The notes beneath the pieces are model-generated. The model was not told where the DNA came from, searched no databases, and worked only from the letters and a program-made list of their open reading frames with translations. From contig NZ_FONS01000001.1 of NCBI RefSeq assembly GCF_900112985.1, positions 741,730 to 805,729 on the forward strand: a stretch of DNA of 64,000 nucleotides, written 5' to 3'. Numbering within the stretch: the first letter of the stretch is position 1; each line of letters begins with the position of its first letter. This document shows, in pieces, positions 18,782 through 60,861 of this stretch. The position numbers and the translations under genes were made by a program. Source of the stretch: Pedobacter antarcticus. Its GTDB lineage: Bacteria; Bacteroidota; Bacteroidia; Sphingobacteriales; Sphingobacteriaceae.

Positions 18782-18817
18782 TGCAATTCTATTGCACGGA
18801 ATTTTTTATTACCTTTG
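18782..18817 (+). promoter_or_regulatory. Promoter and operator of the metal-efflux cassette
   Basis: TACCTTTG (18810-18817) is an exact -7 box 9 bases before the ATG at 18827. TGCAAT-TCT-ATTGCA (18782-18796) is a perfect palindrome lying over the -33 position (TTG at 18792). The arrangement suits a repressor or metalloregulator controlling the czc genes; no such regulator is encoded next to it. Confidence 0.5.
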
Positions 18818-18826
18818 TCAGCAAAT

Positions 18827-19150
18827 ATGAAATGGAAGGCAACAATATTTTTGATTTACATCATGGCACTTTTTCTAGTACCATGTAGTGATGCGAATAA
18901 TAGTTGCGAAAGTTCTGTCGGAGTTACGAAAGTAACATCTCACGATCATGACCAGGATAAAGATGATTCCTGCACACCTTTTTGTCAGTGTTCCTGCTGT
19001 AGTGTTTCAGTAGCATCTTTCAATTTTGAACTACCAGAATTTGGTATTCTTACACACATATTTTCTTCCAAAAAAGTTGTTATCAGGGATTCTAGTTTTA
19101 TATCCCACTACTCTGGTACTATCTGGCAACCGCCGAAATTTAACGTTTAA
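18827..19150 (+). CDS. Small exported Cys/His-rich protein (DUF6660-like) leading the metal-efflux cassette
   Basis: This 107-residue protein has a hydrophobic N-terminus (MKWKATIFLIYIMALFLVP), then an acidic His segment (SHDHDQDKDD) and a Cys cluster (CTPFCQCSCC), a plausible metal-binding patch. Small proteins of this type often precede CzcA operons in Bacteroidota (recalled as DUF6660; not checked). The start at ATG 18827 lies 9 bases from the -7 box; an upstream TTG at 18815 overlaps that box. The czcA start follows 209 bases on. Confidence 0.7.
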   Translation: MKWKATIFLIYIMALFLVPCSDANNSCESSVGVTKVTSHDHDQDKDDSCTPFCQCSCCSVSVASFNFELPEFGILTHIFSSKKVVIRDSSFISHYSGTIWQPPKFNV

Positions 19151-19359: not shown

Positions 19360-22300
19360 GTGTTAGACAATATCATAAAATTCAGTATTAAGAACAAGAT
19401 CATTATTGGCTTAATGACTTTGTTACTTATCATCTGGGGAGCATGGAGTGCAACCAAACTGCCCATAGATGCCGTACCTGATATTACCAACAATCAGGTT
19501 CAAATATTCACTTCCTGCCCAACATTGGCTGGACAGGAGGTTGAACAGCTCGTTACCTTCCCCATTGAACAGAGTATCGCGAATGTTCCCAAGATCGAAG
19601 AAATCCGAAGCATTTCCCGTTTCGGTTTATCGGTGATTACGGTCGTTTTTGATGAAGATGTAAACATCTACTTTGCTCGGCAGCTCATCAATGAAAGGTT
19701 AAAGGAAGCTGTTGATCAGATTCCACAAGGGATAGGCACCCCAGAAATGGCGCCGGTAAGTACAGGACTTGGAGAAGTTTATCAGTACATTATCCATCCC
19801 AAAAAAGGTAGTGAAGATAAATACAACGCAAAAGACCTGCGTACAATGCAGGATTGGATTGTGGCAAGGCAATTATACGGAACTCCGGGTATTGCTGAGG
19901 TTAACAGCTTTGGTGGTCAATTGAAACAGTACGAGGTTGCTGTGAATCCCGATAAGCTGAGAGCGATGGGTGTGAGTATCCCTGAAATATTCACTGCACT
20001 TGAAAAAAACAATCAGAATACAGGTGGAGCTTATATTGATAAAAAGCCCAATGCCTATTTTATCAGAGGTATAGGTTTGGTTACTTCCATTGATGATGTA
20101 AAGAAGATTGTTGTAAAAAATTCAGGAGCCGTTCCAATTTATATCAATGACGTTGCGGAAGTAAGGTTTGGAAGTGCTGTTAGATATGGTGCATTGACAT
20201 TTAATGGAGAAGTTGATGCCGTAGGTGGAGTTGTTATGATGCTGAAAGGCGAAAACAGTAACGAAGTAGTTAAGCGGATCAAGGAAAAGTTACCGACGAT
20301 TCAAAAATCCCTACCTGAGGATGTAATTATCGAGCCATATTTGGATCGTACCGAACTGGTTGGAAGGGCTATGAGTACTGTTGAGAAGAACCTGATTGAA
20401 GGTGCGCTGATCGTAATATTCGTTCTTGTACTATTTTTAGGAAATTTCCGTGCAGGACTTATCGTCGCATCCGCAATCCCACTGGCACTACTGTTTGCCC
20501 TTGGTATGATGAACGTCTTTGGTGTCAGCGCCAATTTGATGAGTTTAGGGGCAATAGATTTTGGATTGATCGTAGATGGTGCCGTAATCGTTGTAGAAGC
20601 AACGATGCACCATTTGGGTCTTCGAAAATCTACCAATAGAATGACCCAAAGTGAAATGGACGATGAGGTATTCGTGTCTGCTTCTAAAATACGAACCAGT
20701 GCCGCTTTTGGTGAGATTATTATCCTAATCGTATATATTCCTATCCTGACGTTAGTTGGTGTGGAAGGAAAAATGTTCCGCCCAATGGCTCAAACTGTTG
20801 GTTTCGCCATATTTGGTGCGTTGATTCTATCGCTGACCTATATCCCGATGATGTGTGCATTGTTCCTGTCTAAAAAACCAAGTCACAAAAAAACATTTAG
20901 TGACAAAATGATGGACAAGCTTTCCAGTTGGTATCAACCACTTTTACAAAAAGCAATCAAGATCAAGTATATTGTTGTAGGTGCCGCTGTAGCTTTATTT
21001 GCAATCTCTTTATTTTTCTTTAGCAGGATGGGTGGTGAGTTTATACCCCAGTTACAAGAGGGGGATTACGCCTTTCACTGTATCCTTCCACAGGGTAGTT
21101 CACTGAACCAAAGTATAGAAACTTCTATGCAGGCTTCGCGGATAATCAAGGAGTTTGATGAGGTCAAGATGGTTGTGGGAAAAACCGGGGCAGCTGAAGT
21201 TCCCACCGATCCCATGCCTCCTGAGGCTACCGACCTTATGGTCGTCCTCAAACCGCAGGATGAATGGGCTTCTGGAAGGGACTATAACGAGCTGGCCGAT
21301 GCCATGATGGAAAAACTGGAGGTAATACCGGGGGTATTCTTTGAAAAGAACCAACCTATTCAGATGCGTTTCAATGAGCTGATGACCGGTATCAGGCAGG
21401 ATGTTGCTGTTAAGATATTCGGTGAAAACATTGATACGCTGGCATCCTACGCCAAGGAGGTCAGTGAAGTAATTCAAACTGTTGAAGGAGCCACGTCTCC
21501 GCAAGTTGAACGCGTAAGTGGCCTCCCTCAGATTAATGTAGAATATGACCGTACACGTATTGCAAATTATGGCCTGACTATTCAGGATGTGAATGACGTG
21601 GTGAGTACAGCTTTTGCAGGTAAAAGTTCGGGACAGGTATATGAAAATGAAAGGCGTTTTGATCTTGTTGTTCGCCTTGACAGTTTGCACAGAAGTGATA
21701 TAGATGATGTTAGCAATTTGATGATTCCAACAACTTCGGGGGCGCAAATTCCACTCTCTCAAGTTGCAAATATTGAGTATAAACTTGGACCTGCCCAAAT
21801 TAGTCGTGAAGCAGGTAAGCGCCGGATCGTAATAGGATTTAATGTTGCGGGACGCGATGTACAAAGCGTAGTACAAGACATCCAAAAGCAACTCTCCGAA
21901 AAAATAAAATTGCCTGCGGGTTATTATTTCACTTATGGAGGTCAATTCGAAAACCTGCAAAAGGCCAGTGCACGTCTGATGATCGCAGTGCCGGTATCGC
22001 TACTGCTTATTTTTATGTTGCTATACTTCACTTTCCATTCTTTCAAGCAGGCCACATTGATATTTACGGCCATTCCGATGAGTGCGATTGGTGGGATATT
22101 CGCCCTGATGTTACGGGACATGCCATTTAGTATCAGTGCAGGGATCGGATTCATTGCCCTGTTCGGTGTAGCCGTATTGAACGGTATCGTTCTGATCGGC
22201 ACCTTTAACCAGCTCAAAAAAGAGGGCATGGACGATGTGTTTAAAAGGGTGAGAGAAGGCACAATGACACGTTTGCGTCCGGTATTGATGACGGCAACGG

Positions 22301-56855: not shown

Positions 56856-57383
56856 TTACAGCGTACCACAAGTTGCACAATTTGGTTCTCCGGTAAGTTT
56901 ACCCGTTATATCAAATTCATATTTGCAACATTCATAAAAATCATTTTTCAAAATATCCTTTGCTCTTTTTATCCTTGCCTTAACGTTGGGAAGGGTTATG
57001 CCTAATAGTGTTGCTGCTTTACTCTGTTTCAGTCCTTTGATATATACAATTTCAATTACCTCCCTGTAAGGGACGGGTAAGTTATTTATGAATTTATTAA
57101 AACAGCATATGTTCTGATATTGAGTATTTTCAGTTTCCTCACTGTTACTGAGCTCTTCTTTAAACACATTTTCCTGATTGTAAAAATTTACTATCTCATT
57201 TCTTGCAATTTGAAACAGCCAGGCTTTCACTTTATCATCCTGCCGTATGGTCGAAATATTTTTATGAACCTTAAAAAAGGTATTTTGAAGGATATCATCT
57301 GCTGAACTTGTATTGTTTACCCTTTTTAGGATAAAGAAATACAGTTCTTTACTAAACGTGTTCCATAGAAATTGTGTTTCCAT
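56856..57383 (-). CDS. ECF sigma factor, SigZ-like, with a C-terminal Cys-rich tail
   Basis: This 175-residue protein has sigma-70 region 2 (about 5-75, DDILQNTFFKVHKNIS; AWLFQIARNEIVNFY) and region 4 (about 95-150, YREVIEIVYIKGLKQSKAATLLGITL). The final 25 residues hold five Cys (ECCKYEFD; EPNCATC) as in SigZ-type factors. No anti-sigma gene is next to it; the Cys tail might sense metal or redox directly. ATG 57383 is preferred to TTG 57389. It follows the metallothionein gene by 46 bases on the same strand. Confidence 0.82.
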   Translation of the reverse strand: METQFLWNTFSKELYFFILKRVNNTSSADDILQNTFFKVHKNISTIRQDDKVKAWLFQIARNEIVNFYNQENVFKEELSNSEETENTQYQNICCFNKFINNLPVPYREVIEIVYIKGLKQSKAATLLGITLPNVKARIKRAKDILKNDFYECCKYEFDITGKLTGEPNCATCGTL

Positions 57384-57429
57384 AATCAAAAATAAGAAAG
57401 GTTAGTGTATAAACTAACCTTTCACGATT

Positions 57430-57543
57430 TTAGCAACAGTCACATTTGTCGCATTCGCATTTAGTACAAGTACAGTCCTTTTCTTCACAATTGCCACAGT
57501 TACATTTAGTGCAATCGCAATCAGTGCATTTACATTTGTCCAT
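57430..57543 (-). CDS. Cys-rich metallothionein-like peptide
   Basis: This complete 37-codon frame (ATG at 57543, TAA at 57430-57432) encodes MDKCKCTDCDCTKCNCGNC, then EEKDCTCTKCECDKCDCC, with 14 cysteines (38 percent) in CxC and CxxC patterns. That is the spacing of a metallothionein cluster that binds Zn, Cd or Cu(I). There is no signal peptide, so it would act in the cytoplasm. It is too short for most automatic gene finders. It precedes the SigZ-like sigma factor by 46 bases, suggesting co-expression. Confidence 0.85.
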   Translation of the reverse strand: MDKCKCTDCDCTKCNCGNCEEKDCTCTKCECDKCDCC

Positions 57544-57683
57544 AAACTTAAATTTTAATGTTCGGTAAGTAGACCGGAGAAGTGTAAAAAGGATACAAAA
57601 AATTCTATTTTTTCATGTTTTATGAAATTTAGCTTTTAATGGCGCACTTAATTTTATTGAGCAACCGAGTGAACAGATCAAAG

Positions 57684-57943: not shown

Positions 57944-58702
57944 TTATAATCGCAATTGTGCGGTAATGCTCTTATAATAAACTTTCAGCGCATCACGCTC
58001 ATCTTTGCCAACATAACTATTATGAGCAACTAAACATCGTATCTTGTACAGTTCGTCCACCATGACATTCAACCAGTGTTCATTCTGTTTCGGGAAATAC
58101 TTTCCGAAAATTGTCCAATTTCCAACAATTATTTTTCCCAACTCTATAAAATCGCAGTAAAAGAGATCACTGTTTCCACGTATGGGCAAATATTTACTTT
58201 CCTGCTCACTTTTCTTCAATTTGTCTATAGTATCCTGTACCTTTCTCGGTATGGTTACCGCTTCCGTCTTCATTATTTCCTCGATAAATATTCGCAGCGA
58301 ATTTTCAATACAATACAGATAAAGGTAAACTTCCGACATTTCCCGTCCTTTTTGTTGTATATCTTGGGGCAAAAGGTTCAGATGACCAAAGTTTATATTT
58401 TGCTGTATTTCCTCTATACTGTCCAACAGGGAATTTTCATCAGAAATCAGCGGATAGAAGAGTTGATTGATATATTTTCTCCGTTCGGCATAACCTCCTT
58501 TGGCCTGCATCTCCCTCCTAAATTCCTGGAGTGTAACACATATTTTAAATTCTTTTGGCTCGTTGGCCTTAAACTTAGCAGATTGTTTCAGTTCGTTTTT
58601 TAGCCTTTTATATTCTGCTTCGTTTTCACTGGTTATCGTAACATCGGTGGAGGCTCCTGTAAGCAGTATTTTTAAACGTTCAATGTTCTCTGTATAATTC
58701 AT
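57944..58702 (-). CDS. HEPN-type (Swt1-like) protein, partner of the GmrSD-like nuclease
   Basis: This 252-residue helical protein has IRCLVAHNSYVGK near 226-238, the R-x4-H motif of HEPN ribonucleases. The preceding helices (LYLYCIENSLRIFIEEIM) fit the Swt1-type HEPN fold, an RNase or partner module. Around residues 40-130 it is polar and unassigned. It starts 20 bases after the DUF262/DUF1524 gene stop, so the two are probably translated from one mRNA. Whether it is a toxin, an effector or an adaptor is unknown. Confidence 0.72.
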   Translation of the reverse strand: MNYTENIERLKILLTGASTDVTITSENEAEYKRLKNELKQSAKFKANEPKEFKICVTLQEFRREMQAKGGYAERRKYINQLFYPLISDENSLLDSIEEIQQNINFGHLNLLPQDIQQKGREMSEVYLYLYCIENSLRIFIEEIMKTEAVTIPRKVQDTIDKLKKSEQESKYLPIRGNSDLFYCDFIELGKIIVGNWTIFGKYFPKQNEHWLNVMVDELYKIRCLVAHNSYVGKDERDALKVYYKSITAQLRL

Positions 58703-58722: not shown

Positions 58723-60861
58723 TTATTCTTCAGTCGTATGTATTGTCTCTTCTTCCTCTTCGAGCATAAAATCAAGAAACAATAGCTCAGCCTTTGCAGC
58801 TTCATTTTCAAATTGCAGATCCCAACGTTCTTCCATAAATTCCAGCAGCTTGTTGCCTCTATGGAGGATAGCATCAGCATTCCAAACAGCGTAGCCTGAA
58901 ACTTCAATTTCAGAATGTGAACCATCAGCATAACCTTGTCTTATTTTCTCTTTCTTCTCGTTATACTTAGCACTTTTCTTGTCATCAAAGCAGTCATTTT
59001 GCAAACTGGAATTAATACTCTGCGAGAGTGGCAGGAGATTTCCTAATGTTCCTTGAAAAAAGGGTAGCTGTGATTTTTTATAGCCCTTAAAATTGGATTT
59101 CCAACCCGTGTGTGTTGGCGTTTGAGGATAAATGTGCTCAATGGAAACTTTGTCTTTTTCGCTCCTTACAAAAAGCTTCCAGTCAATTTTTTGACTGCCT
59201 CTTCGTCTTACCTTTTCCATTTCATATTCATACAAGAAGTAGCGAAGTCCATTCCAATAATAAAAGCCACCGCCACTTTTAAATTTCTTGTCGATGAATT
59301 TTTGGAAGTAGGTATAATCGAAATAAGTTTCGGTGGAATTTTCTGGTGTATAAAAACAGTAATTCATTCGATCATTCAAACGCTGGATAATATTGTCAAT
59401 TGTCAATTCGCCATTTCGCAACTGTCTCGCCGCCCGATAAAACTCACTGTTTCTATACGTAGAGAAAGCCCGGCTAAGCCGGAATGTGATAAATATAAAG
59501 CGCTCGATTGCTTTAAATAATTGAACTCGCATATCCGAATTAACATCCTTGTTCAAGAAAGCTACCGTTACAAGCGGGCGGAAATAGATAATACCAATTC
59601 TGTTCAATCGGTCTATCCATAGGCTTTCCTGTGCAGTCAAGTCTGGATTGTTGACCGGATTATGGGTGTTGTACCAGTGAACGGCAGCAGCTTTTAAACT
59701 GTTCACATAGTCTTCGATTTCTTTGGGAGAGAGTTGCGAACGTAATACTGTGGTTTCTTCTTCTCCATTTGTCTCAACTTCTTCCTGATCGGTATCTTCA
59801 TCTTCCCTGACTTCTTCAAAATCTTGTAAAGAACTAACCTTTACTTCTGTTTTTGCATAAATATTTTGCGGTGTAAATTTCTGCTCCAACAAAAACCTGA
59901 TATAATCATCGCCTTTTTCTCTTGTGTATTGAAAATACATTATCCAATGAGCAACTAAAAAATCATCATCGTTGAGTGGATTTTGTTTATTTCGTCCCAG
60001 TTGGTAATAGACTTCCTTCCAGGCATCGTTGATTTTCTCACGCAAAGAAATCCGCTCATCATTTTTGAGTTCCTTCTCATCGTATAAGGTCGTTAAATAG
60101 ATTAGGCGATTTTTAAGAAGCTCTAAATTTGATAGTTTTTTGCCGCGGTTATTCATGGTCTCAAATGCAACAAATACATCGAAGTCATCACTTATTTCAT
60201 AGACATTGAACATTAGGTTCTGCGTGACTTTCTTGAATAAGACCTCGATTTCATTTAATCCGTATTTGTCAAGGTAATTTTGCAGATTTTCTTTGAAAAA
60301 GCGTTTTGCATTTTCAAGGTTGAGTGTATAGAAGGTTTCCTGGATTGTTCCGCTATTGGGTTCCATAAAAATCCTATGCCTTAGAAATTTGAAGCTTGGG
60401 TTATCAACCTCATAACCAAACTTGTAGGTTGTAATGATCAACTGCGGCGGTCTTTCTATGACCAAATACTCTTCCTTAATCGCCTTCAGGCTAAAAGAGC
60501 CCAGATAAATATCTTCATCTTTCTTATCCTTATTTTCCGCAACAAGCCTCAATTGTTCCGAAATAGCCTGAATAAATATGACAAACGTGGTTAGTCTTTG
60601 TTGTCCATCAACAATATGAAAAGGCTTGAAGGCTCTGTCTTCAATGAGCCACCGTTCATCATTCCAGTTAGACCAGGTATTCTTGTCCACTTTTTTTAAT
60701 GAGAGTAGTCCCGTGTAGTGAAACCTATCGGCTGGGAGATTGACCAAATCTTCCCAAAAATCTTTGAGTTGACGTGTAGTCCAGGCGTACCCACGCTGGT
60801 AATCGGGAATTTTAAATAATCTGTCTTTAAAAATGCTCTTCAGAGGTTCTAATTCATTCAT
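58723..60861 (-). CDS. GmrSD-type DUF262/DUF1524 endonuclease-like protein
   Basis: This 712-residue protein has an N-terminal DUF262 domain: IPDYQRGYAW (18-27) and the ParB-like nucleotide-binding motif IVDGQQRLTT (83-92). The C-terminal DUF1524 HNH nuclease has IEHIYPQ (574-580) and TLGNLLPLSQSINSSLQN about 30 residues later. The fused form is the single-chain GmrSD layout, known as a type IV restriction enzyme for modified phage DNA. An acidic stretch (EDEDTDQEEVETNGEEETT) lies near 360-380. It is transcribed divergently from the DUF1896 gene. Confidence 0.9.
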   Translation of the reverse strand: MNELEPLKSIFKDRLFKIPDYQRGYAWTTRQLKDFWEDLVNLPADRFHYTGLLSLKKVDKNTWSNWNDERWLIEDRAFKPFHIVDGQQRLTTFVIFIQAISEQLRLVAENKDKKDEDIYLGSFSLKAIKEEYLVIERPPQLIITTYKFGYEVDNPSFKFLRHRIFMEPNSGTIQETFYTLNLENAKRFFKENLQNYLDKYGLNEIEVLFKKVTQNLMFNVYEISDDFDVFVAFETMNNRGKKLSNLELLKNRLIYLTTLYDEKELKNDERISLREKINDAWKEVYYQLGRNKQNPLNDDDFLVAHWIMYFQYTREKGDDYIRFLLEQKFTPQNIYAKTEVKVSSLQDFEEVREDEDTDQEEVETNGEEETTVLRSQLSPKEIEDYVNSLKAAAVHWYNTHNPVNNPDLTAQESLWIDRLNRIGIIYFRPLVTVAFLNKDVNSDMRVQLFKAIERFIFITFRLSRAFSTYRNSEFYRAARQLRNGELTIDNIIQRLNDRMNYCFYTPENSTETYFDYTYFQKFIDKKFKSGGGFYYWNGLRYFLYEYEMEKVRRRGSQKIDWKLFVRSEKDKVSIEHIYPQTPTHTGWKSNFKGYKKSQLPFFQGTLGNLLPLSQSINSSLQNDCFDDKKSAKYNEKKEKIRQGYADGSHSEIEVSGYAVWNADAILHRGNKLLEFMEERWDLQFENEAAKAELLFLDFMLEEEEETIHTTEE

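Follow-up and report, generated by a model that had tools for sequence, protein, structure and literature searches.

A predicted metal-responsive cassette of a SigZ-like sigma factor and a metallothionein-like peptide in Bacteroidota

Results

The locus in Pedobacter antarcticus consists of a short cysteine-rich peptide gene followed by a SigZ-like ECF sigma factor gene. We analysed a stretch of 64,000 nt (GCF_900112985.1, NZ_FONS01000001.1 positions 741,730 to 805,729, forward strand), here called the window, and feature coordinates count from its first letter. Both genes lie on the minus strand, with the metallothionein-like peptide gene (MDKCKCTDCDCTKCNCGNCEEKDCTCTKCECDKCDCC, 57430..57543) 5' of the 175 aa sigma gene (56856..57383) and a gap of exactly 46 nt between them. 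The sigma reading frame runs from an ATG at 57383 to a stop ending at 56856, with an alternative in-frame TTG at 57389. No anti-sigma-like gene adjoins sigma among its window neighbours, and none was identified by eye among the neighbours in 16 named loci that carry the pair. An earlier note on this DNA had described a 37-residue, 14-cysteine peptide, complete with start and stop, just upstream of a SigZ-like sigma factor across a 46-base gap and with no anti-sigma gene beside it; each of these points held (peptide ORF 57543-57430). Also beside the pair are genes for a weak HEPN_Swt1-like protein (57944-58702; E 7e-6, just under the cut-off) and, by eye, a DUF262-like protein (58723-60861), which have the look of a defence-type island.

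Shuffled windows and conservation in relatives exclude a chance cysteine-rich ORF. Cysteine makes up a fraction of 0.378 of the peptide; the runner-up among the 518 window ORFs of at least 30 aa reaches 0.167, and the highest value for any ORF in 20 shuffled windows was 0.189. Relatives keep the 14-Cys pattern as type A, the window's own (37 aa, 14 Cys; 28 unique sequences). Type B peptides are 33–34 aa with 11 Cys (59 unique sequences), and type C peptides, encoded downstream of sigma, are 26–27 aa with 8 Cys. Median pairwise dN/dS of the peptide core was ~0.12 for type A and ~0.145 for type B, with a third-position excess. These sequences were picked by Cys pattern, so the constancy of the cysteines themselves is partly built in. 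Non-Cys positions are conserved too, for example Gly at 98% and Thr at 89% in type B.

The peptide has the hallmarks of a metallothionein without belonging to a family that we could identify. It is small, with 38% Cys in CxC/CxxC arrangements, no aromatic residue and a conserved Cys frame, which meets the general criteria for metallothioneins, and it has no histidine. Neither Pfam nor NCBIfam returned a family at E up to 1, so that none of their known bacterial metallothionein profiles matched; no PHROG family matched, and solved structures gave no significant match. Bacterial metallothioneins such as SmtA/BmtA and MymT are likewise small Cys-rich peptides, but the window peptide differs from them in lacking histidine and in its CxC/CxxC spacing. 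That it is a metallothionein-like metal buffer is inferred from sequence alone, as is metal binding, for which there are no binding data. Separately, other unrelated-looking Cys-rich peptides (11–14 Cys, 43–55 aa) lie downstream of SigZ-like sigmas at L063 (6608-6775), L282 and L030 (2092-2223), some with their own promoter copy.

The sigma factor is SigZ-like but not a SigZ equivalog. Pfam assigns Sigma70_r2 (PF04542, 1e-11) and r4_2 (PF08281, 1.1e-9), meeting the ECF criterion of Sigma-70 regions 2 and 4 only, and Foldseek matches its AF2 model to ECF sigmas. Its best NCBIfam models are those of SigZ, TIGR02959 and NF007215, and it misses both equivalog cut-offs (149.2 < 168.65 and 151.6 < 212, respectively). 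One relative, which adjoins an arsenite methyltransferase gene (arsM; L015), passes the SigZ equivalog cut-off.

Conserved cysteines mark both the linker and the tail of sigma. The earlier note had counted five cysteines in the tail, which failed: four lie in the tail (C152, C153, C169 and C172, in ...ECCKYEFDITGKLTGEPNCATCGTL) and two, C93-C94, in the linker between sigma2 and sigma4 (57102..57107, minus strand). The four cysteines of the C-terminal module C152-C153-X15-C169-X2-C172 (56868..56930, minus strand) are invariant in 15 aligned relatives. All 96 sigmas scored as linked to a metallothionein-like (MT) gene have the tail CC and, in the linker, a Cys at position 93 or 94, and 86 of the 96 have the later CxxC; type B sigmas carry a single linker Cys instead of the C93-C94 pair. 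Linker Cys and tail CC occur together in 96/96 MT-linked sigmas versus 17 of the remaining 56, and two of those 17 (L181, L184) do have a peptide that our length-based filter missed. AF2 predicts sigma2 and sigma4 confidently and the tail with low confidence (pLDDT ~54–68). A metal site common to linker and tail cysteines is thus unproven. An IMG/VR contig classed as viral (L119, 5983-6543) also encodes a SigZ-like sigma that has the linker Cys, the tail CC and a Cys-rich tail.

The pair recurs across Bacteroidota. We ran the genome search that the earlier note had proposed and found the pair at ~100 sampled loci in dozens of genera, with the peptide either upstream or downstream of sigma. Almost all close relatives of this sigma in the sampled Bacteroidota genomes have a gene for a Cys-rich peptide next to them. 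Non-conservation of the peptide frame, which that note had named as a refutation, was examined, and conservation proved strong. A phylum-wide sample contained sigma relatives at E<=1e-18 in 32 of 395 genomes, and the closest relatives across the phylum all have a Cys-rich ORF adjoining sigma. Scanning named genomes brought in Aequorivita, Salegentibacter, Psychroflexus, Pontibacter, Leptobacterium, Polaribacter, Tenacibaculum, Gelidibacter, Winogradskyella, Lutibacter and Oceanihabitans, each with both genes. In a quick tree of 152 sigmas, those with an upstream peptide form one clade of 91 (SH-aLRT 88), divided into subclades A (32 rows, SH-aLRT 99) and B (59 rows, SH-aLRT 98), and the peptide is adjacent in 90 of the 91, L249 being the exception. 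The sequences of the pair members are divergent and, read by eye, the neighbouring genes vary between loci; peptide and sigma therefore travel as a unit. Within the window's own family, this genome alone among 251 has the sigma at E<=1e-25; the cassette is therefore rare in that family and was probably acquired. On plasmids, no relative above 60% identity was found. One locus (L231, genome G821) holds a decayed-looking pair, its sigma frame carrying two internal stops and its peptide shortened.

This pairing admits another reading, in which the peptide serves sigma as a protein partner, either anti-sigma or metal donor, and not as a bulk metal buffer. In its favour are the strictness of the pairing and the absence of any anti-sigma gene, and metal could pass in either direction between a metal-loaded peptide and the Cys sites of sigma. 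Against it, peptide length, Cys number (8–14) and gene order vary widely, as expected of a sponge rather than a specific interface, and the clade member L249 has no adjacent peptide. We consider this reading unlikely and prefer the metal buffer, while noting that buffer and metal-donor roles can both hold.

A conserved ECF-type promoter motif stands before the peptide gene. In the window it reads TGTATCCTTTTT-N11-GTCTAC (57569..57597, minus strand). Relatives carry TGYRTC(Y)TTTT-N12-GTCTA, with TGYATC(Y)TTTT-N12-GTCTA as the near-invariant form, ~28 nt 5' of the peptide. A relaxed motif matched 78 of 93 unique peptide upstream regions at identical spacing, against a shuffled rate of 0.002; 72 of these matches end 26–35 nt before the peptide ATG, and most of the 15 regions without a match have a one-base variant. 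Where the peptide lies downstream of sigma (type C), the motif precedes both genes. In one family, sampled at 397 genomes, 47 of the 105 genomes with a sigma relative (E<=1e-18) have the strict motif, against 4 of the 292 without one. Genomes G675, G779, G799 and G984, which carry a motif but lack the sigma, offered no credible target, and the motif there was taken as chance.

We read this pattern as the signature of an autoregulated ECF sigma, an inference from sequence alone. Autoregulation of the sigma-peptide unit is strongly supported, with the step that sigma itself reads the promoter inferred from co-distribution. The whole genome holds one perfect site, and six more appear at three mismatches, a number equal to the control count. 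Because the perfect site is single, the regulon in this organism may comprise just the pair. Apart from the pair's own promoter, the window has no match within three mismatches. The earlier note had mentioned at least two metal-efflux sets and a copper module alongside the circuit, and a wider circuit that includes them is unsupported in this genome: as the promoter has a single occurrence both in the window and genome-wide, we rejected a direct link to the window's own czc, copper and P-type ATPase genes. Elsewhere in the window, a small secreted His/Cys-rich protein (18815-19150) immediately precedes a czcA-type gene at 19360.

A conserved hairpin separates the two genes. The 46-nt gap folds as an 11-bp hairpin followed by a T-rich stretch (GAAAGGTTAGT-TTATAC-ACTAACCTTTC, 57396..57423, minus strand; dG -14.2, z -4.9), and 74 of 77 gaps in relatives have z below -2 versus shuffles. 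Its retention together with the T-rich stretch suggests partial termination. We infer that the hairpin is likely a partial terminator that would yield more peptide than sigma.

The same arrangement could be read as an attenuator, in which the ORF is a Cys-codon leader peptide: its translation would respond to the cysteine supply and thereby set read-through at the hairpin. A short Cys-rich ORF, a conserved hairpin with a T-run and a regulatory gene do resemble such a device. However, in several loci the ORF follows sigma and has a promoter copy to itself, Cys codons are scattered over the entire ORF, and non-Cys residues are conserved, with dN/dS ~0.12–0.15. There is also no antiterminator: the longest duplex between the 5' arm and the ORF was 6.65 versus 7.04 for shuffled arms, and the hairpin was retained in 76 of 83 folds. 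The absence of an antiterminator and the existence of downstream copies led us to reject leader-peptide attenuation, which is very unlikely.

Further genes carry the motif in relatives. CDF-family cation-efflux genes have it in four genomes (L135, L208, L296, L298), at sites 11–23 nt 5' of the gene and away from the pair. All four match Pfam Cation_efflux; those of L135 and L208 match TIGR01297, with ZitB as the closest equivalog model at a score below its cut-off, and two of the CDF proteins share only 30% identity. Homologous TonB-dependent receptors, 43% identical, have the motif in two genomes (L147, 1566-3026; L216, 1479-3). DUF3703 genes with their own promoter copy lie directly upstream of the pair in L164 (~670 nt) and L048 (~620 nt upstream of sigma), and for this reason DUF3703 may possibly be a metal-response protein. 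Among 13 extra genomic sites at one mismatch, 11 fall inside reading frames and the number is close to that of a reversed-pattern control; only two CDF sites stand out. The presence of the motif before these genes is shown, and our inference that they point to metal, specifically Zn/Cd-type efflux, is likely. The TonB-dependent receptor is not an obvious target of a metal-excess response and counts against the metal model. In L147, an HHHHC protein (1124-1456) similar to the His/Cys-rich protein of the window precedes the receptor.

These genes bear on a rival in which the cassette is a thiol-redox circuit. In that account, sigma cysteines sense disulfide or electrophile stress, the peptide serves as thiol buffer or scavenger, and metal is incidental. 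The Cys pairs of sigma and peptide would suit redox chemistry also, and metal binding has not been measured; judging from titles, the ECF regulator SigW-RsiW is known in a zinc-bound as well as an oxidised form. Against this, genes bearing the promoter elsewhere include the CDF pumps of four genomes, and in MT-type genomes we saw neither a thioredoxin nor a peroxiredoxin gene next to the motif. A redox circuit is thus unlikely, and a metal circuit remains the preferred reading.

SigZ-like sigmas that lack the metallothionein-like peptide occur beside arsenic genes. At L015, L028, L061, L062, L073, L076, L259, L261, L273 and L276, the gene downstream of sigma encodes ArsM, an ArsP-type permease or ArsI/CadI, and several of these loci have a TGYRTC-N16-GTC-like site between sigma and the arsenic gene. 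We consider these loci a probable arsenic branch of the family.

Discussion

The closest functional parallel is a group of ECF sigmas that sense metal directly. CorE of Myxococcus xanthus has no anti-sigma; Cu(II) activates it by way of its Cys-rich C-terminal domain (PMC3107203). In CorE and CorE2, a linker CXC is essential as well as this domain, and CorE2 responds to Cd/Zn (PMC3107203, PMC8999054). ECF287 and ECF288, which have Cys-rich tails, have been suggested to work like CorE (PMC8999054). CorE/CorE2 (formerly ECF44, now around ECF238) control metal-handling genes (PMC3107203, PMC8999054, PMC9023288) and share with the window sigma the lack of an adjacent anti-sigma, the C-terminal Cys-rich tail and the cysteines in the sigma2-sigma4 linker.

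The present sigmas nonetheless stand apart from CorE. The window tail reads CC-X15-C-X2-C, whereas CorE/CorE2 have C-X4-C-X2-C-X1-C or CC-X3-C-X2-C-X1-C, and none of 159 loci, the window included, has the CorE/CorE2 Cys spacing. The linker holds CC or xC in place of CXC, with a conserved linker Cys still present. Unlike CorE/CorE2, these sigmas are paired with a metallothionein-like gene, and they occur in Bacteroidota, where a 2011 survey of CorE listed no member. By analogy, they most likely act like CorE2, with metal-dependent activity inferred, yet given the different spacing and the missing CXC they are no CorE members. SigZ itself (TIGR02959/NF007215) remains the best NCBIfam match, and the tail CC is common to SigZ-like relatives. 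OrbS of Burkholderia (ECF243) also has a C-terminal cysteine cluster, there an on-board metal sensor; Fe(II) inhibits OrbS, and its role is in iron uptake (PMC9023288). The present system is instead paired with a putative metal-sequestering peptide and with efflux, which makes activation by excess metal more likely than inhibition of the OrbS type.

The best model, which we consider likely, is an autoregulated, metal-responsive cassette of sigma and metallothionein. Metal sensing is inferred, and there are no expression, binding or metal data. Lacking an anti-sigma, sigma would use its own linker C93-C94 and tail CC...CxxC as an on-board sensor. An excess of thiophilic metal, most likely Zn(II)/Cd(II) and possibly Cu(I) or As(III), would bind these cysteines and turn sigma into its active form; arsenite remains a possible ligand in place of Zn/Cd because MT-less SigZ-like relatives adjoin arsenic genes. 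The sigma holoenzyme would then initiate at the promoter 5' of the peptide gene. Most transcripts would end at the hairpin, giving abundant peptide, and a minority would read through into sigma and amplify the response. The 14-Cys peptide would take up the excess metal, removing the signal and closing the loop. For some relatives the model adds a CDF efflux pump, a TonB-dependent receptor or a DUF3703 gene to the output of this promoter. The earlier note had proposed a metal or redox circuit that expresses a cysteine-tailed sigma along with a metal-buffering peptide. The metal version of this proposal is well supported, since the pairing is conserved, one ECF-type promoter is shared and the same promoter precedes CDF genes elsewhere, with co-transcription and metal binding inferred.

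A bolder reading extends to the whole family and, in our judgement, could as easily fail as hold. MT-less relatives beside arsM, ArsP and ArsI suggest a larger metal(loid)-sensing family. SigZ-like sigmas may then be a broad class, so far unrecognised, of ECF sigmas that sense metals or metalloids directly and in which the tail CC is conserved and changing linker and tail cysteines set the ligand. A Zn/Cd branch would drive metallothionein and CDF efflux, and other, arsenic branches would drive arsM, ArsP or ArsI, from closely related TGYRTC-N16/17-GTC promoters. A search of open-licence literature returned no paper joining SigZ with metallothionein; three turned up for SigZ and arsenic, but by title and abstract none is evidently about a link between the two.

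Metal sensing in Bacteroidota is poorly mapped. The analysis brings out unannotated metallothionein-like families that length cut-offs overlook. If the model is true, the cassette would offer a ready-made, self-contained promoter/sigma pair for metal-inducible expression in Bacteroidota. SigZ-like factors had no assigned role in the sources that we searched, and for one branch of them the analysis now predicts the signal and the promoter, together with target genes.
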